Source of the DNA: Dentipellis sp. KUC8613
Taxonomy: Eukaryota > Basidiomycota > Agaricomycetes > Russulales > Hericiaceae
DNA: 63,137 nucleotides
Reading direction: 5' to 3'
Assembly: GCA_002286715.1 (NCBI GenBank)
Contig: NSJX01000015.1
Coordinates: 415,915 to 479,051, forward strand
Shown: piece by piece, positions 1,808 to 54,470 of the stretch
How positions within the stretch are numbered: the stretch's first letter is position 1
Layout of the letters: every line of letters begins with the position of its first letter
Translations under genes and position numbers: made by a program
The notes under the pieces: generated by a model
What the model saw: the letters and a program-made list of their open reading frames with translations, nothing else
Databases searched by the model: none
Told to the model about the DNA's origin: nothing

Positions 1808-4643
1808 CTATGCCTTCTGCTTCCCTTTTCTCTTCGTACCGAACTTCTGCGTCATGTTCCACTGCAAACGGGCATCGCCTTTCTGGTAATCTTCAAATAC
1901 GTGAGCCCGTATCTGCCTTTCCTCGAAAAGGCTGGCAAGCCGAGGTGCATGCTCCTTGTGCAGTTTCGCTACGAACGAGGTATAATTGACGATGCCTTCT
2001 ACAGTTGTGAGGTCGAAGACGCGTACAGTTCGGTCGATGATGCGAATGCGCTGAAAGGGAGGCATGCGATGATCAGCATCTGCCGTGGTGACAAGGACAA
2101 GTACAGGCAGGAAAATTTGAGTCACTCACAATCTCTTCGCTGTCTTGTTGTCGCTCGCCCCATGCACATATCACAGCACCCATAGCACCCTCTGTTACAA
2201 GTCCAAATATCGGGAAGTCTGTGATCCCGAGCATGCCGAGGAACTTGACGACCGCAACGAGATCCAAGCGGCCTTGGTTCGCTGCCGCATGCCGTGGCGC
2301 AGATATAGTCCTCTTGTATTCACGAACGAGAACCGGGATTTCGAGTGTGTTTTTCTCGTCAAGAACAACCTCATCATCGTCACCTGCATCATCCGTCTCG
2401 TCCTGTTCTTCAGCGCTTGTACCAATGTGGGTATTTTGGAGTTTCTTGGCCAGATCTGGCACATCGAAGGGAGACGAACCCGGAGCAGGCTCGATGTGGG
2501 CGGCGGTCCGGAAGCTGGCACTATACATAACATCCGAATGTGCCGTCGGCGGTGCGTCGCGTCTGTCAATGAACATTCCATACGAAGAAGAAGTAGTGTC
2601 TGTCTTGCCCTTCTTGATCTTTGGGAGGGCATCGATTCGGCGGCCAAATGCATTATCGACCTCCGTGCTCAGGTTCTTGGCGCTCGGAGGTTTTGATCTA
2701 GGAACAAGTGCGAACGATTTGGCCCATTCCGGATCAAAGCCTTCGAAGAATTCCTCGATGCGCACAACTGCAACACCGTCACACTTGGCTGTCAAAGGAT
2801 GCATGCCTTGTACCTGAGACATGGGCAGTGTTTCTCGGCGTTCAACCCATCTGTTGAAGAGCTCGGAGTTAAGCGCACCCGCCTGGTAGGCAGCGCTAAA
2901 TGAGTTCTGTGCATCAGCCAATGCACGTGCACGAGAGGGAGTGTCGTTGTTTGTATATGCTGCCTTCGCTTTCGTCATATTGCAATTTGCGAGCGCAGTT
3001 GATGCACCAAGTTCGTAGGCGATGGCTGTCATTTGTTCAGCGATAGTGGCTTTCTCCGTGAGTTCTAGTGAATCTCCTGGATATCCAATGGATGGGTCGA
3101 TAGTCGGAAGACGCAGTATGCGCTCGGACCTATATGAGTATGAAGCTGTTATTGAGATGAGGAGGCTGATGCAGAAGAAGACCCACGTACGTATCCCAAA
3201 CCATGACCGGGTTTGAACCTCCATCTCTGACCTTGCCTTCCGTGAAGTAGGTGCCCACCACCGAAGAAATGAGACTCCAGCCTTCCCGCCATGCTATTTC
3301 ATCTACAGAATGAGTAACCTGATCGTCCTTATTCTTTTTCATCTGAGCGAGTGCTTGAAAGCTCAGAGGGAGGCAATAAGTGAGACACCCCTCAAGCCAA
3401 GAAGGGGACTTGTCGTCGATCAGATAGACACAGTCAATACGACCAGCTAACTTGTCATCCTCTCGCCGCTGTACAGCATCAGACCCAGAAAGAAAGCTCT
3501 TCAATAGCTCGACATGTCGCGTGGTCAAGGTTTTGGTTGGTGGCTGCAAGCTAACGCATCAAATTTGCGCAAGATACTGACACCAACGGCACATACGTTG
3601 TCGATCCATGCAGATGGTAGATACAGAGCTGTCATGGTTTCATATAGCTTGAAATGTTCTTTGGCATAAACAAGCCAGGATCCGACAGCCTTCGCCTGGA
3701 ATTCATCTAGAAGAGCGGTTGGTGTAAATGAATAACAAACGGCATTTCGGTCAAGCATCCACATGTAGACGGGGTGGATACGATATCCTGAGATCTTGTT
3801 TGCCGGTGCTCTAGCAAATCTAGTGAACATAATAATAAAATTAATGGGGCGCGCAAGTTTTGAGATAGTTGACGCAACTCGGAAGCCGAATATCGCTTTA
3901 CACATTCCCCACTACAGATGCCATTAGTCAAAGACATAAATTTCAATGGTGTTCTGCTCACAACGTGGTTATGCCGATTAAATCTTTCTTTCTAGGATAT
4001 AACTGAGTAAAAATGACCAGAAAACATCGGATAATAAAGAGCGTACGGCGGTGCCACATGGTCCTCGGCGTTGTTCTCGTCGACCCTACGAGGTACATTC
4101 TCCATACATCACAGGCTTCAAGATGAATTAGGAAGCGCCTTACGTCGGTAGACTCAATTGAGACCTGCGTACGGGTCAATCACAATGCAGATCTCAGATG
4201 CGAGAGAACATACTGTGATTTCTGTGACGCAGCGCTCCGACTGTATCCAAAGCAGGCCAAGTGAGATTATAATCAGGCGTCTAAAGATAGCGCACATACG
4301 AAGATCTACGCGTTGGCTGCTCCCTATCATAGTATCATCATATCATCGAGATTGAGTCGAAGGCCAATAAATCATATACGTGACGTACACTGGCTTCAGT
4401 CCAGGTCTCTCCTTACTCGATGCCCTACTCGTTGGCATAGACCTTCAGGTTCTCGTTTGTCAACAAAGGGTAACGATTGAGGTACAGAAAAGACGCAAAG
4501 ACGCACTTTGTTTCCGCATCGTGCGCATCGGATCCCTCGCTAGATTTCGAACTTCGTGGTGTCGGTTCAATAAATCGCCTCACGAAAGACTGAAGCAACA
4601 AGACATACTCTCGGATACGGTCACTTTGGCGTCGGGAAGCCAT
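1808..4643 (-). CDS. Unknown protein B, left-arm copy (probably 3' half of an A-B gene)
   Basis: I do not recognise this family. It is the diverged paralogue of 27463-30423. Clear exons in transcription order: about 3905-3560 (motif MWMLDRNAV), about 3549-3190 (DIDC-rich block), about 3125-2150 (long exon beginning at an ERILRLPTIDPSI motif and ending at CAWGER) and about 2080-1808 (RIIDRTVRVFDLTTVEG to a KGKQKA end). The long exon has an acidic, Asp/Glu-rich stretch and a conserved segment around FLGMLGITDFPIFG. No signal peptide or catalytic motif is visible. The first 700 bases (4643-3950) are poorly conserved and may be decayed: an acceptor used in the right copy is lost here. Only 37 bases separate the possible ATG from the stop of gene A on the same strand, and a GTGAGG donor overlaps that stop, so A and B are probably one gene. 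Confidence 0.6.
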
Positions 4644-4679: not shown

Positions 4680-6268
4680 TCACCTATCGCTACACGCTGC
4701 ATTTACATCTGCAGCCCATGAATAGACCGCGTCCTCTCCAGGTCCTATCACGTCGCGATCGGCAGCGTGACACCTTATCATATCTGCATCCATCATGGGT
4801 ACAGGGCCATCCGCACGCCAAAACGAGATGGCGCCAGACGTAACCTGGGCAAAGACGTCTTCCGCCCGGGCGTCACCTTCTGCACTGATCAATTCGATCT
4901 TCTCCCGTAGACTCAGAAGAAAAGTGGCGAGCGCCTCTGCAGACAATGGGTCCGCGAGATCGAATATCCCGCCCTTCTCTCGTGCTGTACATCCAAGGGC
5001 GGCGTAGGCTACACGCGGCAACGGCTGAAGGGTATATGAAAACAATGGTCAGATATGGAGAACGGAATTGCGCACCACACAATACGACTGGGATACGTCC
5101 GAGTCGCCGAACCAGCCAAAGATGACTTGCACGGAAGTTTGATATTGGTCGAACGCAAGCCCGACTATCGGCTGGTTCGAGAGTCCCCATGCCCGCCGCT
5201 GATGGAGCATGCTCGCCATGACATCAAAGATATTGTCGACGTCGGCCATGCAGAGCAGACCGAGGAGAGGCATAGGACGTTGAATGGGATCAGATAGCAT
5301 ATGAATCTGCGATGCGATAGGATTGAGGCCGTCTGCAGAAGCAGAAGACTCCGATCCTGGTGACATACTTTCAGGATCGTCGACTTCGCTGGCGCCTTCT
5401 TCCCCGTCTTCTCTGTCCGTCTCGTCTTCCCTGTCTTCCCCGTCCGTGTCGTCCGTGCCGTCCATCTCGTCCATCTCGTCCGCCTCGCCTTTCTCGCCCG
5501 TCATCTTTATGTGCTCTTCTGCCATGCGCCCACCATCCTCATGTGACTTCATCGAAATGGGCGAAGAATGTGACGTTGCATTAGAGGCGTGATCCAGAGA
5601 CGGCCCGTCATCTCGACTGGATGCAGAGGACCCGACGCTCTCCTCCTGTGAACCTATCGGCGACCGCTTATCGCTGGGCGCAGACGATGAGCAAGCGTCT
5701 GCAGAAGCATGTTCGCCAGATGGAAAGTCGAAGACAGGGTGAAGTAGAAGAAATGAGGCTTCGACCGTCTTCGGAAGCCACTGCGCCAGCGGGTTCTCGT
5801 GCGCGAGGGGATGCATAGGGCGCACCACTTCAGCGAATTCCCTGAGACGCTTCATGATGAGTATGCGCACCACAGGTACTATGAGAGATGATCTACCAGA
5901 TAGCACAGTCGGGCATTGTGAAATAGAATATTGCGCGGAGAGTTCTGACAAGGAAGCCCGTCTTCGGGTTGGGTGGCACGCCTCGAATTTCATGTTCTAG
6001 TTCTACCATATCGCGGAGATTGGTCGCTAATAGCCGCACATCGCGGAGGGCTTTTGATACTTTTGTAGGGTCCAGTCCAGAGGCCTGAGAAGCAGAGGAT
6101 AATCAGCGCGATTACTGCGATGGGCTATGAGGAACGTACAGTAACTGGCTCGTCGGGATGTGGCGAGAGAACGCCAGTGAGGTCGACGAGGATGGCAGGC
6201 CATTCAAGAGACGAGCCACTCTGCACAATGGCGTGTTCTATGACATTCACCGACGGTGTAATATGCAT
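4680..6268 (-). CDS. Unknown protein A, left-arm copy
   Basis: No known domain recognised. Exons 6268-6140, 6084-5897, 5841-5076 and 5024-4680 join in frame to 475 aa. The splice signals are GTACGT, GTAGAT and GTGCGC donors with CAG acceptors. The ATG at 6268 opens with MHITPSVNVIEHAI. Upstream of it the frame soon meets TGA TAA, but an extra 5' exon cannot be excluded. Residues about 45-110 are charged and probably helical. A serine-rich stretch is followed by a low-complexity linker of D-x-x/E-x-x triplets (about residues 210-250), then a hydrophobic conserved segment (PMPLLGLLCMADVDNIFDVM). The copy at 26022-27429 is about 90 percent identical, even in the intron at 5896-5842. The stop codon overlaps a good splice donor (AGGTGAGG), so the transcript may run on into gene B. 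Probably intracellular; function unknown. Confidence 0.65.
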
Positions 6269-9420: not shown

Positions 9421-10359
9421 TGACCACGTGCCAAGATTTTTCCAGGCCTTTGAGGGACCTAACCTCCGCGCGCTTATCGCCGTCCTGCGGTACGTCTCTT
9501 TCCCCGCTGTGCGACGGCGTCAAGTTATGGCTTTGCTCCCTTGCTGCTCTTGCTAATCTCGTTCCCAGCACGGCCCTGCAACGCTGTAGCAGACTGAATA
9601 CCCAGCACTTACCGGCCTTCGGACTGTGCGGAGCCCAAGATGGGCTTTGACCCGCGTGGGGCGTTCTTACCAGAGTTCAGCGTGCGTGAGATCGCGTCCG
9701 TACGTTCGCCTGCCTACATACATGGATGCCAACTGGGACGGGCGCTGAAACCTTCTGAAACCTTCTGTTTATTAATTCATGCCACTTCCGCAACTCCACT
9801 ACTACGCTAATCGGCACGAATCTCACCCAGTTGAACACCTCAGTGATGCCACCCCCACTTCATTCATTCCTCACGATGATCAACAATCGGGCCGCATACG
9901 CACGCGTGCAATCGACCCAATCACGTGACTGTACCGGACGCCTCGATTGCTGAGTACTCAGTGCTGTGTGTTACCGGGAGGAGCTGTCGAGATGATTCAC
10001 CAAGCGCGTGGCAAGGACAGCGACGAAAGCTTTTCGGCACGTCTTTCTCTGGACCTGACACCGATTTGCGTCTGCAAGTTCCTCATCTGGTGCCCTCTCA
10101 ATATCTGGGTCTTGTGAACTATGCCCCTGACTTGCTCTCCCATGTCCGGGTATCCTGCTTAGCTGAAGCGTAACGTGTCGCGATTTTCGTCACAGACGCC
10201 CGAGGCCGCACGGTTTTTGAAGCCTCCACACGTGTATCAATCTGTCACACAACTGCCCTCCTGCTCATCGGCACCTCCTTTCTCCGTTTCACTCCTGTCT
10301 CGCACTCCTGCACATGGTTTTGTCTGCCTTCCTATTTTGCATGCCGATACTCTAGCAAC
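9421..10359. other. Gene-free stretch
   Basis: No convincing exon, RNA gene or repeat. The open frames here have no splice-compatible partners and no recognisable motif. The last 200 bases may be the decayed beginning of the CHAT gene that follows. Confidence 0.4.
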
Positions 10360-11492
10360 TGCTCCAGTTTCATCAAGTTGCCGGACTTCTCCGAATACAA
10401 GGCAGAGAAGCTGGTCAGCGAACTTCGTTCGCTTCTGGAATTGTTGGGCCTTCGTTCCCGTGGATCTATGCAGCGCTTCGGAATTGGATGGTCTGGAGGC
10501 TTCGACAAGATTCTATCTACTCTTTGGCTGTCAGTTGTGAAGCCCGTTCTTGAGATTCTTGCATTTCCGGTAAGTTTTTCTGTAGTCCTCTTATGTAAGT
10601 TTCATCACAGACAAATTTCCTTCCAGATATGTGATTCAGTTGAGAGCCTCCCTCGCATCATCTGGTGCCCGACTTCCAGATATGTGATTCAGTTGAGAGC
10701 CTTCCTCGCATCATCTGGTGCCCGACAGGCCCTCTCTCGTTTCTCCCCATACACGCGGCTGGCTTGTACGATACCACTGAATCAGGCAACAAGCTTTCCG
10801 ATTTCGCCATTTCCTCCTATACGACTACGTTGTCTGCCTTGCTTGATAAACCAAGCACCGCAACACCATCTCCTGAGTTCTGTGGTCTTTTGGCTGTGAG
10901 CCAGCCAAATACTCCGGGTCTTTCGACACTTCCGTCTACAAAGCAAGAAATCGAACAGATCAAGAAGCACGTCGACGCGGACAAGTTTGTGTGGCTTGAC
11001 GGATCTGCCGCCACGAAACAGACAGTTCTGGATCAAATGGTGTCAATCAACTGGCTTCACCTCGCTTGCCACGCCGTACAACACCCTGAACCACCGAAGA
11101 GCGCTTTCTGGCTCGAGGATGGCGGGCTCGAGATTGGAGACATCATTTCGACGTCGCACGCCCACGCCGAGTTTGCATTTCTTTCGGCCTGCCAGACCGC
11201 TACCGGAGACGACAAGCTGTCCGAAGAAGCTGTTCATCTTGCTGCGGCGCTGCAGCTCGCGGGCTATCGAAGCGTCATCGCGACCATGTGGTCCATTCGC
11301 GACGAGGACGCGCCTACAGTAGCCGACGAGGTGTACAAGCACCTCATGCATGGCAAGGTGCCAGACAGCACTAAGGCTGCAGCCGCTCTCCATCATGCTA
11401 CAATGCGATTGCAGAGCGAGACACGACCGCCGGGAGTGCTCGACGACGCGTGGTTCCTCCGATGGGTACCCTTCATACATATTGGGGTCTAA
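10360..11492 (+). pseudogene. 5'-truncated CHAT-domain protease gene
   Basis: CHAT is a caspase-clan (separase/caspase-like) peptidase domain. The region 10378-10569 encodes a KLPDFSEYKAEKLV segment and KPVLEILAFP, equivalent to the pre-CHAT part of the intact gene at 50780-54470. An intron starts at GTAAGT (10570). The main exon (10680-11492) has the whole CHAT core with His in WLHLACHAVQ and Cys in FLSACQTATGD, and ends DDAWFLRWVPFIHIGV. The TPR region of some 800 residues that should precede it is absent: upstream there are only frame-broken traces, with no start codon better than an internal ATG at 10469. A 53-bp tandem duplication sits on the 3' splice site. The peptidase core itself is open and intact, so an expressed CHAT-only protein cannot be excluded. 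Confidence 0.7.
10621..10726 (+). repeat. 53-bp tandem duplication containing a 3' splice site
   Basis: 10621-10673 and 10674-10726 are identical but for one base. Each copy begins TTCCAGATATGTG, so the AG acceptor of the CHAT intron exists twice. Using the second AG restores the normal exon in frame. Using the first adds 53 bases and shifts the frame. Confidence 0.95.
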
Positions 11493-11871: not shown

Positions 11872-14800
11872 TCAAGCGACGCAAATGTAAGAGATTCCCG
11901 CACTGTACAGCACGGTGTCGGACCAGCCGTCAATGTGCCAAGTCATCCCGGAGGTGGTGACATTGTCGACGGAGGTTCGAATGCGCAGGTTTGCGGAGCG
12001 GTCGATGTTGAGGGAGTTTAGAGCCACGAAGACCTTGGGAGGCTGCGCGAAGTTGATATTGCCGAACGTGATCTTGTTGTTATTATTCAGTTGAGGGCGA
12101 ATCCAGGAGCGGATGTCTCTGGTATCCGCACGACCGCTGACAACGTCCAGGCGACCCTGAGGATAGGCAATCCAGCCAACGTTGCCGCAATAAAGAACAG
12201 AGTCGGCCCATGTATCGACTTGGACTCTGAAGCCAGAGCGGGTGACGTCGGTGGCGGTCACATTGACTCGCCAATCCCTGCTACCCAACATGTCTAGGCC
12301 GGACAGGAAGACGACGACGTGGGGAGGCTGTGTGAATTCGCGCTTGAAAGCGATCCACTGGGACGTGCTCAACTGCGGCTGCGATCGGGAATGGACCTCG
12401 AGCGTGGAGAATTCTCCCCACTGGAACTCCTTCTCCTCCTGAGGAAGTTCGAGCCAGCTGGCGCCTGCAGAGTACAAGGTGGTCCCGCTCCAGGTGTTCA
12501 AAGAAAGTTTGAAACCCTCCTGGCCAATATCCTGCTTCTCCGCGACCACACGGATGTTGTTGTTGCGGTCGATATCGAGAGTGTTCAGGCCGAAAGGAAG
12601 TATCTGTGGGACGACAGGGAGGTTGCTGAAGGTAATAGTCTTCGTCGTCTCCCCCTGGGGTTTGTTCCACGGACGTACATCCATCGTGTTGGCGGTGCCG
12701 ACAACAATCGGATTCCTGCCCGTCGGCGTCTCCGGTGCCGGCTCGGGCTTGGGGTCGGTGGGCGGAATGGGGACCAATGGTTCCTTGTGCTGAATGATGG
12801 GAACGAGAATGGTATCCCAGACGGCCTCCGTCTTGACTGTCGAAGGCTTACCCGCGCGGCCTTCGCTGAAAGGCGAAGCTTGAGGGACATGCGAGAGGTC
12901 GACAGGCTCAGACGAGAGGAACAGCTTGAGGAATCCAACGTCGATGTCCTGACCATCTGCGAGATAGTACTCGTATGGTGCTGCACCACCAGACCCGTAT
13001 CCGATGGTCAGAGACTGTTTCGGCGCCAAGGGAGCGTCCACTTTCCCGACAGCAGTGGGCGTCTCGAAGTACGACTCTGCAACACGACGCATTCAGATAG
13101 GGTTCGAGACTCGTTAAATGCGACTTACGGATGCTCAGATCTCCGTGGCTGAAGAAGAAGACGCTGGGATACAGCGGGATGTTAGTCGTGTTGACGATCT
13201 TGACGCCGTACTTCGTCCCGTCGGCAACCACATCGACGATGTCTCCACGTTTGAGGTTGGGTCCTTTTGGCCGCAAGATCGCCTGCAAGTCTTCATCGTA
13301 CTCTCCATCTGCCTCCTCCAGCTCGTAAACCTCCACCTGAATCTTGCCCTGCAGCTTTGGCGTCTTCGTTGTCCGATTGAGATGCCAGTAATAATGAGCC
13401 GCAGCGCGAACGACCGGCAAAGCAGCGTCAACGTCGATGTCAATAGAATATGGGATCCTGTCCAGACCATAGCCTTTCACGAGCGGGTCCAAGATGTTGA
13501 AGACAATGCGGTCCTTCTCGAGCTGAAGGTCGAGGACAGACTTCTCCTTGGAGTCCAAGAGGATCTTCTGCGCTCCCGTCCCAGTCTTCTGCATCTCCAT
13601 CGCCAGCGCCTCAAACAGGTCCGTGAGGCGGTCGTCCAGAGCCACATGAATGCGAAGGTCCTCCTGAGCACCGGCCCGAGTCTGAAGAGCATAAGCGTCT
13701 TTTTCGAACGTGAACTTGTCGCCGTATGAGAGAACGTCCAGCACACTTGAGAAAGCAGCAGTCTGGAGCACAGTCAAGACGCCCAAGGGAGTGTCAAGAT
13801 CGTCACGATCCCTGTACACGGTGAACTCGGCACCTTCGGTGACGCCATGCGCAGCGCCAGCGTCCATAGCGTACTTGTCCCCCTTTATCCGGATCTTGTG
13901 AAGAACTCGCCCACGAGAAGGAGCTCTTGCATTGAACAAGATTCGCTCAGCGTTGACTCCCTCGCACTGAGGGTTTTGACTGCGTCGGACGGTTAGATGC
14001 GTGGCGTACATGGAGACAACGAGAGTGCTTACGCAGGCAAGAGAGGGATTCGCTGCGCAAGATCCTTGTATGTCACTTTGTCGGCGCCATACATGCGAAG
14101 GGCTTCTAGCAAGGCCTTGGTGAAGACACCCCTCTTGTCCTCTTCCTTCGCGGTCTCCTCAGCACTGCATGCCGCAAGCAAGACGTGAGACCTCAAGCCG
14201 CTGTGAGAGAAGCCCGAAGCGATTTTAGCGAGACGGTCGCCGGAAGAGTTGGACCAGATGTCTTTGTCGAGGTCGGACGGAATCTTGACGTTGGTCTCGA
14301 TACCGCGCACCAAGCGGTCCGGATCGAACTCATGGTCGCGCGTGCCCGAACCAGAGTGGCAGCAGTCGAAGATGACACTCTGATCACGCTCATCAGCGTC
14401 GGCGAAGGGTACGAGAGTCAACGACGTACGATGTTGTCTCCCTTCTCCTTCGCGATGTTCGAAATCAAAGAGCCCAGGGTGCGATCAGGGATCCCGACTA
14501 CCTGGCGACCGTTCACCGTTTCGAAGTGGTCGTGGGGACAGATGAGCTGGATCTTGGGTCCTCCGGCCTCCCATCCATCGGGCGCCTTCGCGGTCGAACC
14601 ATGGCCGGCGTAGAAGATGAAGATAGGATCACCATACTGAATGCGCTCGTCGGTCGCCAAAGCGCGCAGTTCTCGTATGATACCTTCCCGAGTGGCCTGC
14701 TTGTCTCGGAGGTTCCTGATGTTGTCGGGGGAGACGCCGAGATCGGTCTTCAGGTACGCCTCGATTTGATTGGCATCTGGGACGGCGCCTTTGAGAGGCG

Positions 14801-15175
14801 TGACATTGTAGGACTGGTACCTATTGATGCCGATGACGAGGGCGAAGAAACGGGGAGGCTTGCTGTAATATGCATGCTCGTCAAAGATATGGCCAAGAGA
14901 CGGGAACGAAAGCATGACTTACTCGGCCACCGGTATGGGAGTGGGAATTCCTCTGGGACGAAATGAATGTACAAGGTGAGTCGTATAGCAATGACGCGAG
15001 ATTTGAAGGTCGACTTACACGGAACGGTCTTGAGGAGGCTTTTCGCCGTCCCTCTTTTGGCTGTCGAGATATATGAGAGGCGTCGAATGTCGATAATTTG
15101 CCGAACTTACTTCAAGAGAGCCCAGAGGAGCTCTTCATAGGTGTTTATGTCCTTGTCGGAGAAGCTAAAGCGCAT
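11872..15175 (-). CDS. Metacaspase-like peptidase fused to three H-type lectin repeats
   Basis: Seven exons (15175-15111, 15060-15019, 14952-14923, 14862-14430, 14379-14033, 13979-13129, 13076-11872) join in frame to 990 aa. Residues about 46-310 form a C14 caspase-like domain: FFALVIGINRY, the His motif FYAGHGS (His133) and the Cys motif FDCCHSGSG (Cys197) are all intact. A middle region (about 311-700), shared with the paralogue at 16684-19271, looks beta-rich; its role is unknown. A Pro-rich linker then leads to three repeats of about 85 residues, each with a W-x-x-P start, a P-x-V-x-x-x-L-x-x-LDIDR-type core and a final TLYSAG-like strand. These are H-type lectin domains, a carbohydrate-binding fold. 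There is no signal peptide, so the protein is probably cytosolic. The start is fixed by splice phase and a TATA box 51 bases upstream. It is divergent from the lectin-less paralogue. Known of the family: metacaspases cleave after basic residues and act in cell death and proteostasis. Glycan-triggered activation here is my inference. Confidence 0.88.
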
Positions 15176-15231: not shown

Positions 15232-16566
15232 AAGAAGGCTTAGAGGTGCTCCATCGATTGCGCGGTGTTTCCTGTGCACGGCGAGAACAGAAATGGACGT
15301 CCAGCATCTTGGTGAGCGATCCTGATGTCTGATTCGATATCTAGAGGGAGTCGGTGGGGCAAACGATCTGGTGGAATATGTTCCGCGTAGAAGGACGGCG
15401 ACCTACTTCGCATCCAATTCAGTCGTCGCCATTGCGCCAGTACTCTGAATGCGGCGACCTTCGTCATCCTGCAGTGCATGACACCCCAGGAACAGCCGCC
15501 TTCGTCTCGTCTCGTCTTCGCTGAACCGAGTAAGGTATCTTGTACTTCCATCTCCTTGACATCTCCATGCAAGAAGATGCAGCCGGGGACACAGAGCGGC
15601 TGCTGTGATATTTGATCCAAGGTTCGGATGGCGAGTAGCCACTGCTTGGAAGCTGCCACTGAGGCGCGCTTCTCAATCCCGGTAAGGATCCTCAGGCATT
15701 ATGCGTATGTCCACGTCTGTACTTCACCACTGCAAATGCGGCAGGCAGTCGTGACGGTGTGAATAAGGAACCTGGCCTCAGCGGTGCCAGTCGAAGGAGA
15801 AAGGGCTTTCGGCATCCTCCGAGCATCTACAACTTTGACTTCAAGCCGCCTCCACTTCGCCGCATGTCTCTTCCGCACGCTCAGTGACACGCTGGCTCCA
15901 ATTTCGACACTTGCGTTATCCACGATGCGTCCTAACCTCGTAATGGAAAGCCCCATGGTTCTGGGCGCTTTCATATCGTAGATCGATAGCGAAGATGAAC
16001 GTCCGGAGACAATATTTCTGCTAGCTCTGCTCGGATTCGAGGTGGAAGGTGTACGCCACTTGCAGCCTCGGTGGATTCCAACGTCGAAGGAAAGAAGACT
16101 GTGGGCTTCGAAAACGACGTCAAGGGTTCTTTCTGGACAGTCTGAATCGCTGATAGTACTGTTCCGCATCCTTTCCGCAATACACCTGACGATCCCTTCA
16201 CAATGATTCATCGCCTCCAGCTGAGCACGGCGTCCCCCTATCTCGCATCTCAATACTCTTCACTTTTCTCGAAGTCGTTGCAGACCATCTTGTGACGAAG
16301 GACGGAGCATAGCTTGTCTTCTACGCCACAGGATTTCTCACTTTCAGTCGTGCTTTATCTCGGAAACCCAACGGCTAATCAGATCGAGATGGATTAGGAT
16401 CCTTGCATGGACCTGCAGGCGTTCGGGATCGTATATCAGGTTTTGTTCTCGATGAGGCCAAGACGAGTCTTCTACGAGCTCACTCCCCCCGCATTATGTA
16501 TCTCTCATCGTTTGGTGTCCATGTCTACACATACCCTGACTTGCTCTGGGTTATTCTGCAGTAAGC
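15232..16566. other. Divergent promoter region between two metacaspase genes
   Basis: About 1.3 kb between the two head-to-head genes. It contains some longish open frames on both strands (for example minus-strand 16253-15699) but no start-splice-stop arrangement or known motif that I can support. It must hold the upstream signals of both genes and probably the unread first exon of the plus-strand one. Confidence 0.4.
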
Positions 16567-16683
16567 ATGAGCCTTTACTATTTACTCAGTACGGCTCATA
16601 AATTCGGGCGTACTTTCCAGGCGTTCTCGCCCGTAAGTAACATCTGCCTGCGTATGTTGTCCGCAGCCCTGACATCTCGACAG

Positions 16684-19271
16684 AGCGTCCTTCCCTGCTT
16701 GGTATACAACTACGTTCGTTCCAGTGCCGTTCGTACTCCCTCCCCCGCCACCAGTACCCTACCAGCCGTATGCGCCCCACAAACCGCACAAATGGCCCAA
16801 GCCTGTCAAGCCCGTCAAGCCCGTCAAGCCCGCCAAGCCTTCTCCGCCCTCACAGTAAGCATTCACGACGATGTAGGTTCGAGCCTTGCATCTAACGACT
16901 GCGCTTAGGACTGTCACCGTCGTTGGGAAGGAAGTCAACATCAATATCTATTCTGAGGGTGGGACCGTTAAGTGCGTGATTAAGCGTGGTCGATTTAATG
17001 ATGATTCATTTTGATCAATATAGTATAAACACGCCTCCTCAACCCGAAGTCATAGAAACGTGAGTTATGAGTCTAATCCTGCCGCAAATACCACCGTCTC
17101 AATCGCCTTCCTTTCTAGCAAAGCGCCGCGCCTATTCGCACTCGTTGTAGGCGTCAACCAGTACCGTTCGAGCAGCGTCAGGAATCTGCTAGGTGCCGTC
17201 CCCGACGCGGACAGCATCAATCAATACCTCACGGAGGAGCTGCGCGTGCCGCCATCGCAGATCCGGAACCTTCGCGACGGGGAGGCCACCCGCGCCGCGA
17301 TCATCGACGGCATCCGCGCGCTCACGGACGACCCCAAGATCAACTCCAACGACCCCGTCTTCATCTACTTCGCGGGCCACGGCGCGACGACCAAGACCCC
17401 GGAGGGCTGGGAGGCGGGCGGGCCGAAGATCCAGATGCTCATTCCGCACGACCACGATTGCGTCGTCGCTGGGAAGACCATCCACGGCATTCCCGATCGC
17501 ACGATCGGCGTCCTCCTCGAGCGGCTGGCGAAGAAGAAGGGCAATAACGTCGTCAGTGCTTTATTCTCCCCCCTCGTGTTCTGCCGGCAGCCGTTACTGA
17601 TTGTGATCCCCGAAGAGCGTGATCTTCGATTGCTGCCACTCCGGCTCCGGGACACGCACGGACGAGATCGACTCGTCCTACCTCGTCCGCGGGATCGAGA
17701 TCAAGAAGCCGGTGCCGAGCGACCTCGACAAGGAGATCTGGAGCCAGGCCGCGGACGACCGCGCCACCGTCGTCGCTGCCGGGTTCCTGCAGAGCGGCCT
17801 GAGGTCGCACGTCTTGCTCGCTGCCTGCGGTGCGGCGGAGACCGCGCAGGAGAGGGACGGCAGGGGCGTCTTCACCAAGTCCTTCCTGGAGACAATCATC
17901 TCGACCGGCGCGGACAAGCTCACCTACCGGGACATCATCCAGCGTATCCCGAACCTGCCAGCGTGAGCATCCTCTCCTTTCGCTGCTAGGTATAAGACCG
18001 AGCTTTGACTTTGGACGCGGACCCAGCCAAAACCCGCAGTGCGAAGGCTTCCACGCGGATCGCATCATGTTCGACGCGAAGGTCTCGAGCCCCGGGCGGG
18101 TGCTGCACAAAGTCCGCCTGCACGAGGGGCAGTACGTGATGGCGGCGGGCGAGGCGCACGGGATCACAGACGGCGCAGAGTTTGCGGTGTACAAGAACCG
18201 CGACTTCACCTCCACCACGGCGCCGCTCGGCACGCTCGTCGCGCGCGAGACCGCGGCGTTCTCGAGCATCCTCGAGGTGCCCGCGGGCTCGGTGCGCATC
18301 GCGCTCGCGGACGACGACACGGTCTTCGCGCTGCAGACGCGCGCGGGCGTCGCGGAGGACCTGCGCGTGCACGTCGCGATGGACGACCGGCTCACGGCGG
18401 TGTTCGAGCGCCTCGCGGAGGACATGCAGCGCACGGACGCGGGGCAGCGCAAGGTGCTGCTTGTCGAGAAGGACCGCGCGGAGGTGGACATCGATATCGA
18501 GGGCGACCGCGTCGTGTTCAACATCCTCGACAGCCTCGCGACGCAGTTCGGGCTGCACCGCATGCCGTATACTGTCCGCCCCGACGCGGACGCGGTGTAC
18601 CCTGTCATCACGGCCGCGGCGCACTACTACTGGCACCTCCGCCGCACGAGCGAGAAGAAGATCTTGCAGAACAAGGTCAAGCTGGAGTTCATGAAGGTCG
18701 AGCTGTCCGAGGAGGAGTACGACGACGACCTGAACCCCGTCGTCAACCCCGCCGGCCCGGACATGAACAAGGCGAACGTGGTGGAGATCTTCGTCGGCGA
18801 CGAGGCGATGTACGGCATGCGCATCGTGAACACGACCGGGCGCGATCTGTACCCGTCCCTGTTCTTCTTTGACAACAGCGACTTCAGCATCAGTGCGTAT
18901 CTTCTGACTCCCGCCTCTAAACCTCAGGAACAGGATAGCACTGATCGCATTGCACTACAGCGCCGTACTACCTCCCTGGCACGGCGGGCCAGATCGTCGA
19001 CCCGCCGCTGCGGGCGAAGCAGTCGCTCACCATCGGCTTCGGCGCGGGCGGCTCCGTGCCGTACTCGTACTTCCTGCGCGACGGGCAGGACGTCGACGTC
19101 GGGTTCCTGAAGCTGTTCCTCTCAACGGAGCAGGTGGACCTTGCGCATCTGGTCCAGCGCTCGCCGTTCGAAGAGGGCCGTGGCGGGCAGCCGGCGCCGG
19201 TCAGGACGACGCCTATCTGGGACACGATTTTGGTGTCGGTTGTGCAGAGGCGCGGAAAGTCGCCCCAGTAG
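16684..19271 (+). CDS. Metacaspase-like peptidase without lectin repeats
   Basis: Caspase-like (C14) protein. Firm exons are 16909-16971, 17024-17059, 17119-17551, 17616-17962, 18027-18892 and 18961-19271. The exon ending at 16854 encodes a Pro-rich lead-in with a tripled PVK motif (KPVKPVKPVK). Its start is uncertain: I take the acceptor at 16683, and a first exon with the ATG lies somewhere in 16400-16632. Catalytic motifs are intact: IYFAGHGAT (His) and IFDCCHSGSG (Cys). Exons 433 and 347 nt long are identical in length and phase to those of the divergent paralogue. The shared middle region follows, but the protein stops after ILVSVVQRRGKSPQ, just where the other continues into lectin repeats. 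The 17.2-19.2 kb coding sequence is strikingly GC-rich compared with its neighbours. No signal peptide seen; cytosolic role in regulated proteolysis inferred from family. Confidence 0.85.
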
Positions 19272-26021: not shown

Positions 26022-27429
26022 GACCAATCTCCGCGATATGGTAGAACTAGAACATGAAATTCGAGGCGTGCCACCCAACCCGAAGACGGGCTTCCTTGTC
26101 AGAACTCTCCGCGCAATCTTCCATTTCACAATGCCCGACTGCGCTATCTGGTAGATCATCTCTCATAGTACCTGTGGTGGGCATACTAATCATGAAGCGT
26201 CTCAGGGAATTCGCTGAAGTGGTGCGCCCTATGCATCCCCTCGCGCACGAGAACCCGCTGGCGCAGTGGCTTCCGAAGACGGTCGAAGCCTCATTTCTTC
26301 TACTTCACCCTGTCTTCGACTTTCCATCTGGCGAACATGCTTCTGCAGATGCTTGCTCATCGTCTGCGCCCAGCAACAAGCGGTCGTCGATAGGTTCACA
26401 GGACGAGAGCGTCGGTTCCTCTGCATCCAGTCGAGATGACGGGCCGTCTCTGGATCACGCCTCTAATTCAACGTCACGCTCTTCGCCCATGTCGATGAAG
26501 TCGCATGAGGATGGTGGGCGCATGGCAGAAGAGCACATAAAGATGATGGACGAGAAAGGCGAGACGGACGAGATGGACGACACGGACGAGATGGATGGCA
26601 CGGACAACACGGACAATACGGACGACATGGACGGCACGGACGGCACGGACGGGGCAGACAGGGAAGACCAGACGGACGGGGAAGACGGGGCAGAATCCGC
26701 CAGCGAAGTCGACGACCCTGAAAGCCTGTCACCAGGATCGGAGTCTTCTGCCTCTGCAGACGGCCTCAATCCTATCGCATCACAGATTCATATGCTATCT
26801 GATCCCACTCAACGTCCTATGCCTCTTCTTGGCCTGCTCTGCATGGCCGACGTCGACAATATCTTTGATGTCATGGCGAGCATGCTCCATCAGAGGCGGG
26901 CATGGGGACTCTCGAACCAGCCGGTAGTCGGGCTTGCGTTCGACCGATATCAAACCTCCGTCCAAGTGGTCTTTGGTTGGTTCGACGACTCGGACGTATC
27001 CCAGCCGTATTGCGTGGTGCGTCATCCCGTTCATTCTCTACATCTGGCACATGTTCCTCACATCACCTACAGCCGCTGCCGCATGTAGCCTATGCTGCGC
27101 CTGGATGCACAGCACGTGAGAAGGGCGGAATATTCGATCTCGCGGACCCGTCGTCTGCAGAGGCGCTGGCTACTTTCCTCTTGGGTCTACGGGAGAGAAT
27201 CGAATCGATCGGCGCAGAATGCGACGCACGGGCAGAAGACGTCTTTGCCCAGGTCGTGTCGGGCGCTATTCCAGTCTGGCGTGCCGATGGCCCTGTACCC
27301 GTGATGGATGGAGACACGATAAGATCCCGTGCTGCCGATGAGGATGAGATAGGACATGAACAGGGCGCGTGGTGGAGGACCATCAACTCATGGGTGGAGG
27401 ATGTAAATGCAGCGCGCTGCGACAGGTGA
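26022..27429 (+). CDS. Unknown protein A, right-arm copy (5' end in gap)
   Basis: Partial: the first exon and part of the second are in the gap. Visible exons 26022-26150, 26206-27016 and 27073-27429 join in frame. The first visible residues TNLRDMVELEHEIRG match the left copy. The protein has a charged N-terminal part, a Ser-rich stretch, and an acidic linker built from GACGGCACG-type 9-mers. That linker is about 15 residues longer than in the left copy. The conserved segment PMPLLGLLCMADVDNIFD follows. The TGA at 27427-27429 overlaps the splice donor AGGTGAGG. An intron from 27427 to about 27480, with a CTGAT branch-like element, would join this frame to gene B without a shift. I could not identify a family. 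The 5' two thirds are nearly identical to the left copy; the last exon is noticeably less so. Confidence 0.65.
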
Positions 27430-27462: not shown

Positions 27463-30423
27463 ATGGCTCCCGCTCGCAAAAGCTCGCGTGCCAAAGAGTA
27501 AGTCATGCTGGTTCAATCGCTTGTCAGACGAATACTTAGGAGGATATCGCGAAGATCGAAATCTCAAGATGAATCTAGTGCGCAGGGAGTGATGACAAGG
27601 TGCGTGTTCTATAGATCTGAATTGGCGAGTATTTTTTAACAGACGCGACCATAAAGATCCAAGACTGCAAGTGAGGTATCGAGCAAGAATCAATCGAGTG
27701 GAAAAGCGCCGTACGTGACGTCTTCGATTTCCTGACCCTTGATGCATGCTGAACGATGGGACAATACGACAGAGAGAAGCCAACGTCTCAACCGTCGTGG
27801 GTTCTTTACCTCGAGCGGTCTTATAACAAGCTCTCTGATGTTTTGGGTGCGATGCAGAGCAGGCTCCAAATCACGGAAATCGAAGTATGTTCCCCCGTGT
27901 TTGAGGTTTCTATGGTATTGACCCGCACCTAGGCATCAGTCCAGTCTACCGACGTGCGTCCGTCCTAGCTCATCTTGAAGTCTCTGATACATGGGACACG
28001 TTCGCTGTAGTGTCGATGAGAATAAGGTGGAACATCACGTAGCCGCACCGTACGCTTTTGCATTTCTGGTGCTCTCTCGCCGATTTCACTGATGGTTACA
28101 TACATCGGCAGGACTGATTCCATTGGGATAACGACGTAGTGAGCGCATTCTCCGTTCTGCTTGGTGGTCTGAACTCATGTATTCGGCAGCGAAAATCGTG
28201 CAAAGCGGTATTCAGCATCCGAGTTGCGTCGGCCCTCGAGTTTTGAAGTTGGACGCTTGCTGAATTTTACCTGATTCTGTAGGTTCGCCAGAGAGAAAGC
28301 GATCAATGCCGGGAATATCGAGATTCATCGCATCTATCTATGGATGCTTGACCGCAACGCTACCAGCCACTCATTCTGTCCCACCACCTTTGTGCGGCAA
28401 GCTGGAGGAGATCCCTGGATCTCGTCTACTCTGCTACACTTCGAGGCATATGAAGCATACACGGCGCTTTATATGCCATCTGCATGGGTCGAAAATGTAT
28501 GTACAGCTCTTGGGAGTATTTTGAACCCTATACTTAACTCGCGAAACAGCCACCTATCGAGAGTTTGACTTCTGAGGAAGGCGCTGCTTTTCGCACGTTC
28601 CTCACTGGACCCGAAGTCAAACAACGGAGGAAGAAAGACACTGAAGCCGGTCGGATCAGCACGTTCTGCCCACTAGGAGACGACAAGTCCGATTTGTGGC
28701 TTGTTGAGTGCCTCTCCCAGTGCCTTCCCTCAATTTTCTTGGCTCTTGCTCAGATGGAGTGTAACAAGGAGACTCAGCGCTATCGGACTGTTAGTGAAAT
28801 GGCATGGCGACAAGGCTGGGATTTAATTTCCTCCGCGGTGTCCGTCAACTTGGCACGGGTGAATACTGGATCTGGTAATACCGTTATGCACAACATGTAC
28901 GTCTATCTGTTGCTTGTTCATTTCCTTGTTATGACTTATATTGAAAACATGCAGGATTGAGCGAGTCCTTCGTCTTCCAGTCATCGACCCGTCAATTGTG
29001 TATCCCGCGGACCGCAAGTCATATTTGGATATGCCTGCAGCTAGCACGGCTCACAGCACAAACCTACAAAAGGAGATGCGACTTGCTTCCAATAACTTGG
29101 ACAGGTTAGAGGAAGCTTACAACAACAATATGACCCCCTCCCATGCACGTGCGCTGGCAGATGCGAGGACATGGTATGAAGCCACAGTGCAAGCGGTTCG
29201 GGCCAGTTCCCGACTCTTCGATTTATGGGAGACACGCCGAGAGAAGTTGTCATTATCCGAGGTTGAGGCAGCAGAGCCCTTAACAGCTAAATGCGACGGC
29301 CTTGGCGTGGTGCGCATTGAGGGGTTTTTCAAAGATGTCAAGAGGGGATGGGTAAACTCATTTGCACTTGTTTCTCGACCGAAGCCCTCGAAGAAGAACA
29401 AGACTGACGACCAGCAAACAGAGGTCAATAATGCAGCGGGTCGCGACATCGACGCGCCGCCTCTCGCCGACAAGGGAAATGCAAAACCCTTGGACAGCGC
29501 GTCTGCTACACATGGGATGTTCGTTAAAAGGGGTCCTATACCCCCGACAGCGCACTCCGATGTCATGTTCAGTGCCGTTTTCCGCACGGCTGCTCACATC
29601 GAACCTGCACCAAAGTTGCCTGGCTCTTCCCTCCGCCCCCCTCTGTCCGACGTGTCGACCGCTCAAGCTGTCGATACACTCGCCGACAAACTCGCCGACA
29701 CACATATCCGTGCCAGCGTTGGAGAGGCCAAAGCGAAGCAGGTAAACGCCGAGGGTGTTGAAGATGCCAGCCGAACAAACCTCGATGATGAGAGCGATGA
29801 CAGTGACCCGAACCAAGAGGCCGAGGATGAGGTGGTCCTCGACGAAAAAGAATCGCTCGAGATACCGATCTTGATACGCGAATACAAGAAGATGGTATCT
29901 CTCGTGGAAGAGACAGCAGGAAACCAAGCCCACTTGGACCTTGTCGCAGTCGTCAAGTTCCTCGGTGTACTTGGTATTACGGACTTCCCCATATTCGGTA
30001 TCATATCCGAGGCCGCGATGGGGGTCGTCGCATGCGCGTGGGGCGAGAAGATCCCGAAAAGTAAAGAAATTGTAGGTGTCTTAATATTTCCCGTCAGTAC
30101 TCGTTGTCGCAATGGAAACTAACCATGCGACGTCTCCACTTCAGCGCGTGCGCATCATCGACCGGAACCTGCGCGGGTTCGACCTGGCAACGGTGGAGGG
30201 CGTGTTCAACTATGCATCGTTTGTTGCGAAGCTGCAGAAAGAGCACGCCCCTAAGCTTGCCCGGCTTTTCCAGGAAAAGGCAATAAGGGCCACGGTGTTG
30301 CGAGACTACGAGAAGGACTCGTCGGAGGACACGGCGCCGCTGCGGTGGAACATATATCAGAAGGTGAGGAAGATGAAGAAAAACGCGAGTAGCGGTGAAA
30401 GCAAAGGGAAGCAGAAGGCGTAG
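27463..30423 (+). CDS. Unknown protein B, right-arm copy
   Basis: Family not recognised. The main exons are about 28280-28497 (IYLWMLDRNATSHSF), about 28551-28898 (TSEEGAAFRTFLTG to NTVMHNM), about 28955-30075 (IERVLRLPVIDPSIVY to KSKEI) and about 30145-30423 (RVRIIDRNLRGFDLATVEG to KGKQKA, stop TAG). Upstream, small exons between 27463 and 28000 carry a basic, Ser-rich start (MAPARKSSRAKE) and a segment YNKLSDVLGAMQSRLQ. The order of splicing there is uncertain. An acidic run (about 29780-29850) precedes the conserved FLGVLGITDFPIFG segment. No signal peptide, transmembrane helix or enzyme motif seen. It starts only 33 bases after the stop of A and is probably the 3' part of the same gene. 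Roughly half of residues differ from the left copy. Confidence 0.65.
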
Positions 30424-50779: not shown

Positions 50780-53700
50780 TCAGACGCCCATATGAATGAA
50801 TGGAACCCATCTCAAAAACCAAGCGTCGTTCAACTGCTTCGGTTTTGTATCCTCTCGAAGCCGCTTCACAGCGCAATGTAGTGCCAACGCTGCCCGAGTA
50901 CTGTCCGGCTTTGGAAGCAAGAGGCGAGAATACACACCGTCAGCGACGACCGGACCATCCTCGTCCTTGATTGACCACATCGTGGCAATTACACTGCGAT
51001 ATCCGGCGAGCTGCATCCCAGCAGCAAGGTGGACCGCTTCTTCTGAGAGATCTTCGTCGCCCGTGGATGTCTGGCATGCGGATAGAAACGCGAATTCGGT
51101 GTGAGATGCGGTTTTGGTGATGAGCTCTTCGAGAGTGAGGCTGCCGTCGTGAAGGTAAAATGCGCTTCTGAGCGGGGAATTCGACATTTGAAGTGCATGG
51201 CAGGCTAAGTGCAACCAATTGTTCTTTGTCATACCTTCGCGCACCCGATCAACTGTTGCGTCTTCATCCTCGAGCACATGAACTTGAAAACCATTCGCGT
51301 TATCCCTGATCTTCATGATTTCGTCTCCAGTGTGAGGTAGCGACCCCAAACTCGGTGTGTTCCTCTGACCAACGGCGAGTATACTTGGCGTCCTTTGACC
51401 CGAAACAGGAGGCTCTGATGTCGGAATGAGGGTGGACAAAGTCGGGGTATAAGACGAGATAACGAAGTCGGAGGTCGTGTATCCTCGCACAGGCTGATCA
51501 TATAGTCCTGCTGCATGTATAGGGAGGAACGCCAGTGGTCCGGTTGGACACCAGCATATCCGGGGAAGGGTGTCCACGTCAGATTTGGAGACCTTCTATG
51601 AAGTCAGTGCTCTGGATGATGCGCTGGATAGAGATCAAGTACGCACCTCAAAGCCAAGCCTATCCAAGACGGGCTTTACGATGGTTTTCCATATGATAGA
51701 GAGGATATGGGCGAGATTCCCGTCCTTTCGAGCACCTGGTATATAAGGTCTCGAAGAACGGGCACGAGTATGAGACGCGTCCAGGACTGAGCGCAAATTG
51801 TTCTTCAACGTCTCCGCCAGTTGGTAAGACAGACGAGGCAATGGAACATGCATGACCTCTTTCGAATCCGGAGATAACACCAGTGCGCTGCAATTTTGCA
51901 TAGCAACGTTCAGAAGAACGATATGCCCGGACCGCGTAGCCTTTTGCAGTTCAGGAAGACGCTTGGGTTGGAGGAAATTCTCAAACCCGGGAATAGCACG
52001 CGTCTTCTTCGTCAGCTCCTCCCATTCTTCTGCAAGCCGCCGATTCCTCTGCGCTGCGCCTTCTGCGGTCTCAAGAGACCATTCTTGATCTACCCTCGTG
52101 CTCACAGCGTCTAATTCGGCCGCGACGCGGGTCAACTCCTGAGCGAGTTCTGGCTCTTTCAGCATCAGTTCATCCACCGGTGCGCGAAGATTGAGCTGCT
52201 GTCCCCAGATGACCGCTCGACCTTGCTCAAGCCACTCCACAGCTTCTGTATAACGCCCACACAATGTCGCTATGGCTGCTGCACGTCGTACATCCTCTCC
52301 AATGGCACTGACTTGCCCGTGACGCTCCGAGATGGTGCGGCCCAGCCAAGCCGTACGCGGGATAAGGTCCACGAGAGACTCCCATGCAGCGAAGCTCTCT
52401 GCGAGGGTTTCTGGCGATGATCGAAGAACGAGGCCCGCCCAAGCGCGGCAGGTCTGCCGGTAGAAAGAGAGGTCGCCATTCTTGCTTCTAGAGTCAGAAA
52501 AGGCGGTGCGAAATGCATCCATAGCCATGTCACGATCGTCAGGGTCTCCGAAGGCTTCGAGGCGATATTTGAAAGCAGATCCGAGGTGTCCCATGAAGAT
52601 GAGATTGCCGGGGTGCTCAGCAGGTACTAGCTTGATTGCCCGTTGGAAGACGTCGATGCTCTCGTTGATGTCCCGAGCTTCTTTGGAATGCTGGAAAGAA
52701 TGAGAAAGAGCCAGGCCTAGGCCGTTTAGGTAAGATGCTTTGTCTGTGCCTTCGTTGATTGTTCGCTCCACAGCTTGTCGGTGACAAAAGACTGATTTTT
52801 CGATATCTGTCTGCTCTCCGTAACTGTCGAAACGTATCATGTAAGAGTATCCAAGATGGCTGAGATAGTTCGCCAAAAGAGGGTGATCCTGAGGAGTCAA
52901 AGAAACGGCACGATTTCCGACCGCAATGGCTTCTTCAATGTGCTCGCGGCCTCCACCGCGATTGAAGCGCCGATACAGGGATCCACCTAAGTGGCCTAGA
53001 TAGAGTGCTTTCGTGGGGTCGTTATCCGCTACTAGTCCTACCGCCCGCCGGTAACACATGATAGCGTTTTCCAGGTCCTTCAAGTCGTCTAGCCAGCCGA
53101 ATCGGAGTAAATATGCATTTCCAAGGGTGAAAATGTGTGCAGGCTTGTCCTTTCGCGCATTGGGTGTCATGTCGATGACCTGAGTAAGTAGAGAGATCGC
53201 AGTGTCAATGTCAATAAGTTGCTTGGAACGCCCAAAACGTGACGACAAAGAATTGGCAAGGTTGGCGAAGTAGACCGGCTTGTGTATGAGGCCCGTGTCC
53301 GGGAGAAGATCTATGGCACGATGCTGAAGAGCAATGGCATCATCGAGGTCGTTGATATCCCCGTACTGGCCGAATCGAGCCACCAGAGTATTTCCTAGGT
53401 TCGTGAGGTAAGAGTGCTTCCCGGAAAATGAGTCGGGGGATAGTGCGATCGCGCGCTTCTGCACGTCCGCCGCTTCTTCGATGTCATCACGACTTCGAAA
53501 CCGCTGAAACCGCAAGAACAAAGCATTTCCATAGCTGCAAAGGCAGCCAGCGAGTACCAGCGGCGATTCATTCACGGACTCGATGATACCGCGCAGAGCC
53601 GAGATGGCCTCGTCGAGATCATTGACGTCCCCAAAATACTCGAACCGTACCACTAAACAATCTGCAAGGCTCCGCAAGTATGTAGCCTTGCCCGTGCGGC

Positions 53701-54470
53701 TGTTGGAGGGAGATTCTGCTGCAGACCGATGAGAAATTATTGCTGCATCAAGATCGGCCGGGTCTCCACGATGTTCGAAGCGCCGTAGCAGTGCGTAACC
53801 CAACCTATAAAGAGTATCTGGGGGTTGACGGTCAAGGGGAAGGACAGTGTGCAGATGCTGGTAAGATTGTATGGCGAGGTCCAAATCCGCGACATTGCCT
53901 GTCGTCTGAAACCGCTGGATGCATTCGAAGCCAAGGGCAGGAAGGAAGATAGGCTTATTGGCGTGGGTTTCAGGAGCAAACTCGACAGCACGTTGGAAGG
54001 AACAGATGCAAGAATCGAGATCGCTCATCGTCGAATGTAATTGAAAACGAATCTTGAGTGCACTGCCAAGTGCAAACTCACAGTCGGGGTAGTCGGGGTG
54101 TGAATCTGTTGCAATTGTCTTTCCTTGCTCCAAAGCACGGATGCAATTATCCAGATCTTCGGTTTTTCTCCGTAGCTGAAACAAGCGAAAGCAGAGCTTT
54201 CCACGTGTGAAATATACGTCCGCTTTGCTCGCGTCATGATCTGACATATTGTTGATGAGATCCTGTGAAAGCTCAGTAAATCGATACCCATTCTTGCATT
54301 CACAGCGGATGCGTACCGTCGAGTCAATGCTTAGGCTGTTCAAAAACAGACTTCAGCCTCGTCATGTAATCTCGAGTAAAGCGAGCTCACCTTCGTATGT
54401 AATCATAATCAGTACTTTGCAAGCCCGCGACCAATGTTGCGAGCGTATCACGGGAAGGTGTCGAGGCCAT
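50780..54470 (-). CDS. TPR-CHAT protein (caspase-clan peptidase with tetratricopeptide repeats)
   Basis: Exons 54470-54391, 54335-51647 and 51592-50780 give 1193 aa. Residues about 60-640 are a run of some twelve tetratricopeptide-like repeats, seen as recurring L-x-x-RF / D-DLD-A-I / A-V-x-L blocks. A coiled, charged region (about 650-900) follows. The C-terminal CHAT domain has catalytic His1055 (WLHLACHALQ) and Cys1096 (FLSACQTSTGDE) and ends WFLRWVPFIHMGV. CHAT domains are related to caspases and separases. In bacteria, TPR-CHAT proteases act in defence and cleave gasdermins; in agaricomycetes the family is large and mostly unstudied. The start ATG follows an in-frame TAG; a longer N-terminus through an upstream exon (to about 54712) is possible. 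No signal peptide, so probably cytosolic. All motifs are intact, unlike the truncated relative at 10360-11492. Confidence 0.9.

Follow-up and report, generated by a model that had tools for sequence, protein, structure and literature searches.

A caspase-fold protease joined to three H-type lectin repeats in Dentipellis: a candidate intracellular recognition-plus-protease protein

The stretch of DNA analysed here (the window, 63,137 nucleotides (nt) of contig NSJX01000015.1 from the wood-decay fungus Dentipellis sp. KUC8613) carries on its minus strand, at 15175-11872, a gene whose predicted product joins a caspase-type protease domain, a middle domain and three H-type lectin repeats in a single chain. 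With a probability of about one half, we read this product as an intracellular fungal recognition-plus-protease protein: ligand recognition by the lectin tail would place or concentrate the protease, with downstream cleavage in defence or in self/non-self recognition.

Gene structure and domain layout

Splicing of the window gave a gene of seven exons encoding 990 amino acids (aa) and a stop (Table 1). The six introns are all of the GT-AG type and 50-66 nt long, and the spliced exons form one frame. An independent exact-match splice search returned the same exon set, and the predicted product is identical, letter for letter, to the annotated protein DENSPDRAFT_897123 of Dentipellis sp. KUC8613 (P0001 in the following). 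An earlier examination of the DNA letters (the sequence-only reading) had described one 990-aa unit with seven in-frame exons, and this description is thereby borne out. The Pfam profile PF00656 (Peptidase_C14) matched residues 52-300 with 67.8 bits against a cut-off of 21.4 (E 1.4e-18), and PF09458 (H_lectin) matched three stretches with 169.5 bits against a cut-off of 24 (E 1.7e-50). Both matches are far above chance level, and the three lectin repeats that had been noticed by eye were thus recovered by the profile. The sole Pfam trace in the middle domain was a sub-threshold FlgT_C match at 340-368, and Pfam matched neither NB-ARC/NACHT nor WD40/TPR/ANK domains in the protein.

The last exon begins at residue 590, within the middle domain, and encodes residues 590-990 without a break, i.e. 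about 100 middle-domain residues, the linker and all three H_lectin repeats. Since one exon spans the middle domain through the repeats, splicing cannot detach the tail; only an internal promoter or an early poly(A) site could do so. A gene-joining artefact was rejected on account of the exact annotated match, the occurrence of the fusion in four proteins from two species and the position of the junction within one exon. A secreted protein was also rejected, as no signal-peptide-like stretch was seen in the fused KUC8613 proteins; the N-terminus of P0001 is free of such a stretch, in agreement with the sequence-only reading.

The catalytic motifs of the caspase domain are YAGHG at His133 and DCCHSG at Cys197, and both residues were conserved in 54/54 aligned family members (hand-picked for spread from the 120 relatives described below). 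Together with the PF00656 match, this confirms the caspase-type domain with an intact His133/Cys197 pair that had been proposed. As judged by a profile score above the curated cut-off, the caspase fold and the catalytic His and Cys, the protein belongs to peptidase family C14. Type I metacaspases bind calcium through an acidic stretch after the catalytic His; counted from sequence only, the acidic residues between HG and PxD number two in the window protein, 0-5 across the 54 relatives and 8-9 in two yeast sequences. Asp75 and Asp195 are also conserved in the domain, and may line the S1 pocket as in metacaspases.

Origin of the fusion within a fungal protease family

The whole-protein search gave 383 matches, of which the best 120 are listed; proteins far from the query in length were not candidates. 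The fusion counts given below rest on these 120, on the best 120 of 397 matches to the tail alignment and on nine further matches to the tail region. The caspase-middle unit aligned in 120/120 relatives listed from the whole-protein search, indicating an established fungal protease family, and PF09458 was carried by four of the 120. With regard to the C-terminal tails, 101 of these relatives have none longer than 60 aa, four have the lectin and 15 have some other tail. Among the last group, two proteins (P0088, P0093) have a transmembrane-like C-terminus and four (P0039, P0047, P0071, P0080) have strong coiled-coil-like heptads on a crude score, indicating that the lectin occupies a position which also serves anchoring or oligomerising tails. 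The first 25 residues of the family hold a short conserved start around 'YxELLW', common to lectin-bearing and lectin-less members and possibly a signalling or interaction motif. One relative, P0016 from Candolleomyces aberdarensis (1344 aa), has two caspase domains and apparently a doubled caspase-middle unit.

A profile scan of the KUC8613 genome found H_lectin in nine stretches, corresponding to at least three genes, all on the same contig as the window (C45); as the scan scored the best candidates only, three genes is a lower bound. All three encode caspase-lectin fusions, namely the window gene, P0002 and P0003. This contig also carries two lectin-less relatives: P0005, arranged in tandem with P0002 about 0.7 kb upstream of it, and P0006, located in the window and oriented so that its transcription leads away from the caspase-lectin gene there. 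A sixth, distant relative lies on contig C27. Dentipellis fragilis contributed one fused protein (P0004) and one P0006-like protein (P0007) to the matches listed. The survey of the fusion that the sequence-only reading had called for therefore found it again in two same-contig paralogs and one D. fragilis protein and, among the matches listed, in the genus Dentipellis only.

In a tree of 22 proteins, the four lectin-bearing proteins form one clade (support 92/91) with the lectin-less P0005 as sister, and P0003 groups with P0004 (100/100). The distribution is best explained by a single gain of the lectin by a pre-existing caspase-middle protease in the Dentipellis lineage, predating the split of the two species, with subsequent duplication. 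Given the earlier branching of P0001 and P0002 relative to P0003/P0004, counterparts of both would be expected to have existed in D. fragilis at one time; these are not among the best 120 of 383 matches. P0004 itself has 165 extra N-terminal residues ahead of the usual start, and its model is without a piece of the first caspase strand; the extension looks like a gene-model error.

The triple lectin and its other partners

Structure prediction of the C-terminal tail gave the three repeats as one compact unit, with a predicted local distance difference test score (pLDDT) of 94.8 and a predicted template modelling score (pTM) of 0.91. Profile and predicted fold together place the tail among the H-type lectins. 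We take Arg63, Trp83 and Tyr89 of Helix pomatia agglutinin (HPA) to be the sugar-contact triad; their letters agree with the HPA chain. Equivalent Arg/Trp/Tyr triads are kept in all three repeats of the window protein, in none of the three of P0002 and in one of three each in P0003 and P0004.

The tail-region query gave nine matches, comprising the four fusions and P0121-P0125; the lectin-only set is a sample of the best-scoring of the 397 matches to the tail alignment. Of the resulting 129 proteins (best 120 of 397 plus nine), 82 have all three triads and 105 are stand-alone triple H-lectins, defined as having at most 15 extra residues at either end; in the remaining 24 the module is C-terminal, followed by at most 17 residues. 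The stand-alone proteins come from mushroom-forming fungi and truffles. Triple-lectin proteins mostly have no signal-peptide-like start, a hydrophobic N-terminus being present in 4/130. Further partners of the module are a metzincin-type zinc protease (P0126, P0216 from Ganoderma adspersum, and P0222; HExxHxxGxxH is intact in all three, with the Pfam score of P0126 slightly below the cut-off), a NAL1-type trypsin-like protease (P0121, P0123; GDSGS and His/Asp motifs present), NB-ARC, a receptor-type nucleoside triphosphatase (P0124), an acid phosphatase (P0125) and PKD (P0173). P0210 resembles a piece of a P0124-type protein and had no Pfam match apart from H_lectin. In another triple H-lectin protein, P0195, residues 1-170 show a histidine pattern that is tyrosinase-like by eye, and no such match was found in Pfam or NCBIfam.

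Repeats of the same index are 42-55% identical across proteins and those of different index 36.5% identical within one protein (122 proteins), indicating that the triplication predates the fusions. A tree of the lectins unites the tails of the four caspase fusions in a single clade (1.0) and separates them from the NAL1 pair (0.99) and from the three metzincin tails, which fall within a group of 14 without forming a clade themselves. Since the partner domains are unrelated, the fusions have independent origins. The triple lectin is an old module joined to several kinds of protease, which hints at a reusable means of aiming them. A broader proposal, which we put forward tentatively and hold to be rather unlikely, is that the module is a plug-in cytosolic single-chain pseudo-trimer attached independently to three unrelated protease types (caspase-fold cysteine, metzincin zinc and trypsin-like serine) and to NB-ARC. 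It would define a class of glycan-guided proteases not described so far, with the Dentipellis version as a one-protein sensor-effector switched on by several sugars bound at once.

Constraint on the parts

Among the three fused paralogs, rough ratios of non-synonymous to synonymous substitution rates (dN/dS, NG86) were obtained for each domain: 0.066-0.091 in the caspase domain, at 80-85% amino-acid identity, 0.061-0.071 in the middle domain, at 86-90%, and 0.128-0.170 in the lectin, at 66-69%. All parts are maintained, the lectin tail being the fastest-changing of the three domains and the linker changing faster still.

Proposed mechanism and alternatives

In the mechanism that we favour, the tail would bind a repeated ligand, such as a terminal N-acetylgalactosamine (GalNAc)- or galactose (Gal)-like sugar, or another surface in some paralogs. 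The bound tail would set several protease molecules side by side, or bring them to a membrane or particle, and proximity would then activate the protease, as with other caspase-fold enzymes. Once active, the protease would cleave its downstream target, behind basic residues should the S1 pocket be lined by Asp75 and Asp195, and this would lead to a response in defence or self/non-self recognition, e.g. regulated cell death. The paralogs would recognise different ligands, since they differ at the presumed ligand contacts. This reading is suggested by the pre-existing internal protease family, the use of the C-terminal position for anchors and coiled coils, the missing secretion signal, the fast tail as in het-B and the NB-ARC fusion. 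The sequence-only reading had spoken of a simple sensor-effector; this was upheld in part, in that the architecture, the single gain, the constraint and the intact catalytic residues emerge from the sequence comparisons, and we infer the ligand, the multivalent activation, the cleavage and the outcome.

Several points weigh against this mechanism. The contact triads are eroded in P0002, P0003 and P0004, and the tail may be losing sugar binding. The values of dS are 0.9-1.5 for the three domains, i.e. near saturation, which makes the dN/dS ratios rough, and the heptad score is crude, a value of 0.75 being reached even by the lectin tail. P0124 comes from a metagenome, and its match to NB-ARC is short. 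No partner gene was identified, gasdermin genes not having been searched for, and the CHAT-domain open reading frame (ORF) adjacent to the window gene has, among the CHAT matches listed, no counterpart next to the other paralogs.

The main rival, which we consider unlikely, is an MOA-type chimerolectin serving in defence. Kept in the cytosol, it would be ingested by a nematode or insect piercing the hypha, attach to gut glycans through the lectin and exert its protease activity there. According to excerpts of PMC13324453, the lectins that fungi use in defence reside in the cytoplasm, and MOA unites a lectin and a cysteine protease. The Dentipellis protein, too, has a lectin and an effector domain in one chain without a secretion signal, and most triple H-lectins stand alone and lack a signal-peptide-like N-terminus. 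The presence of the module on two further, digestive-type proteases with intact active-site motifs (metzincin and NAL1-type) would also fit a defence role. However, the caspase-middle unit belongs to a large family that is usually without lectin and whose basic role needs no external target, and three of the four fused proteins show erosion of the residues that contact the sugar in the lectin. Moreover, we found no toxicity reported for a fungal H-type lectin, and an excerpt of one source reports H-type lectins from 30% of the genomes of fungi studied and states that they have never been isolated from fungi (PMC8227253).

A targeted housekeeping protease, in which the lectin recognises glycosylated or misfolded cytosolic proteins and the caspase trims them, or which serves mainly in binding or trafficking with little use of the protease, seems quite improbable to us. 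Least probable of all is that the fusion is real and the tail a passenger, decaying without a selected role with the protease or made separately from an internal start: the loss of contact residues in the paralogs, the fast-evolving linker and the fact that P0005 manages without a tail speak for it, but four proteins from two species keep the frame across the linker, the lectin dN/dS is 0.128-0.170 and the junction is covered by one exon.

Genomic neighbourhood

Table 1. Features of the caspase-lectin gene and its divergent neighbour, in window positions
Feature	Position	Strand	Basis or remark
Whole gene (exons)	15175-15111, 15060-15019, 14952-14923, 14862-14430, 14379-14033, 13979-13129, 13076-11872	-	Splicing; match to P0001
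Peptidase_C14 (caspase-fold) domain, residues 52-300	14050..14846, interrupted by intron 14429-14380	-	Pfam
Catalytic His133 codon	14601..14603	-	Position counted from exon table; family alignment
Catalytic Cys197 codon	14359..14361	-	Position counted from exon table; family alignment
Middle domain, residues ~307-690	12775..13979, contains intron 13128-13077	-	Common to the caspase family
Pro/Glu-rich linker, residues 691-713	12706..12774	-	Length and sequence vary among paralogs
H_lectin repeat 1	12451..12642	-	Pfam profile
H_lectin repeat 2	12163..12354	-	Pfam profile
H_lectin repeat 3	11884..12075	-	Pfam profile
P0006, lectin-less family member, 767 aa, 9 exons	16496..19271	+	Divergent; the caspase-lectin gene starts ~1.3 kb away

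The CHAT-domain ORF lies at 10644-11489 (+; E 3.2e-36), is convergent with the lectin-caspase gene and ends about 0.4 kb from its stop. No TPR-bearing ORF was seen upstream of it, and part of its start recurs immediately upstream in a different frame (ORF 10174-10896), so this ORF is possibly a copy that has been truncated or rearranged. Elsewhere in the window a TPR ORF (51638-54352) adjoins a CHAT ORF (50783-51595) on the minus strand, the two probably forming one TPR-CHAT gene; the CHAT part of this locus (50783-54352) is 57% identical to the ORF at 10644-11489.

A five-copy family on the same contig (about 306.0-307.3k, 322.8-324.2k, 344.1-345.5k, 350.0-351.4k and 356.8-358.2k; loci L020, L009, L015, L010 and L010/L011) directly adjoins P0002 and P0003 and was not found beside the window copy; the one copy scanned (322.8-324.2k) had no Pfam match. 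Within the window, the stretches at about 2.1-6.0 kb (-) and 26.1-31 kb (+) are related in opposite orientation, with 85% identity between ORFs 5052-5996 (-) and 26051-27085 (+) and 49% between 2076-3293 (-) and 28935-30119 (+). A mobile element, or an inverted duplication surrounding the two caspase genes, may account for this.

Comparison with known systems

We found no description of an H-type lectin-caspase fusion in the titles and abstract openings that our searches of one open-access library returned, which agrees with the earlier remark that the arrangement lacks a functional description. Effector and lectin in one fungal protein are already known; the caspase/H-lectin combination and the recurrence of the lectin on three protease types appear to be new.

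Among the closest known systems are the metacaspases and other C14 peptidases (yeast Yca1, Arabidopsis metacaspase 4 and bacterial GSU0716). Compared to these, the Dentipellis protein is without a long prodomain, has a reduced acidic stretch after the His and adds the fungal middle domain and the lectin tail. H-type lectins such as HPA, SLL-2 and the discoidins are separate subunits, whereas the Dentipellis lectin consists of three tandem repeats in one chain, is joined to a protease and has Ser/Ala/Ser in its repeats at the residue equivalent to His84 of HPA.

The fungal chimerolectins MOA/PSL1a and CCTX2 are similar in that lectin and effector reside in one cytosolic fungal protein, the effector of MOA being a cysteine protease (excerpts of PMC13324453; see also PMC4764322 and PMC8244254). 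They differ in having a beta-trefoil lectin and a papain-like protease, as opposed to the H-type lectin and caspase clan in Dentipellis. The domain order of MOA is, moreover, the reverse of that in the Dentipellis protein. HET-lectin proteins such as het-B of Podospora share an N-terminal effector and a faster-evolving C-terminal lectin fold, which in het-B sets the specificity (excerpts of PMC10890737); in that case, however, a HET effector, a fruiting-body-lectin fold and a PII-like protein ligand take the place of the caspase and the H-type lectin. The receptors with a CHAT or S8 protease, by which fungal gasdermins are controlled, likewise combine a protease and a recognition part in one protein (excerpts of PMC12881547 and PMC10197012), pairing CHAT/S8 with WD40/TPR/ANK in contrast to C14 with a lectin in Dentipellis.

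If the lectin gates or aims the caspase, receptor and executioner protease would be one small protein, testable in one tube with sugar added and cleavage measured, and the paralogs with altered contact residues would be ready-made variants for specificity tests. Such a protein would join the fields of fungal defence lectins and fungal regulated cell death, which usually have separate literatures, and the occurrence of a single ancient lectin module on proteases of three unrelated types would amount to a natural experiment in protease aiming.
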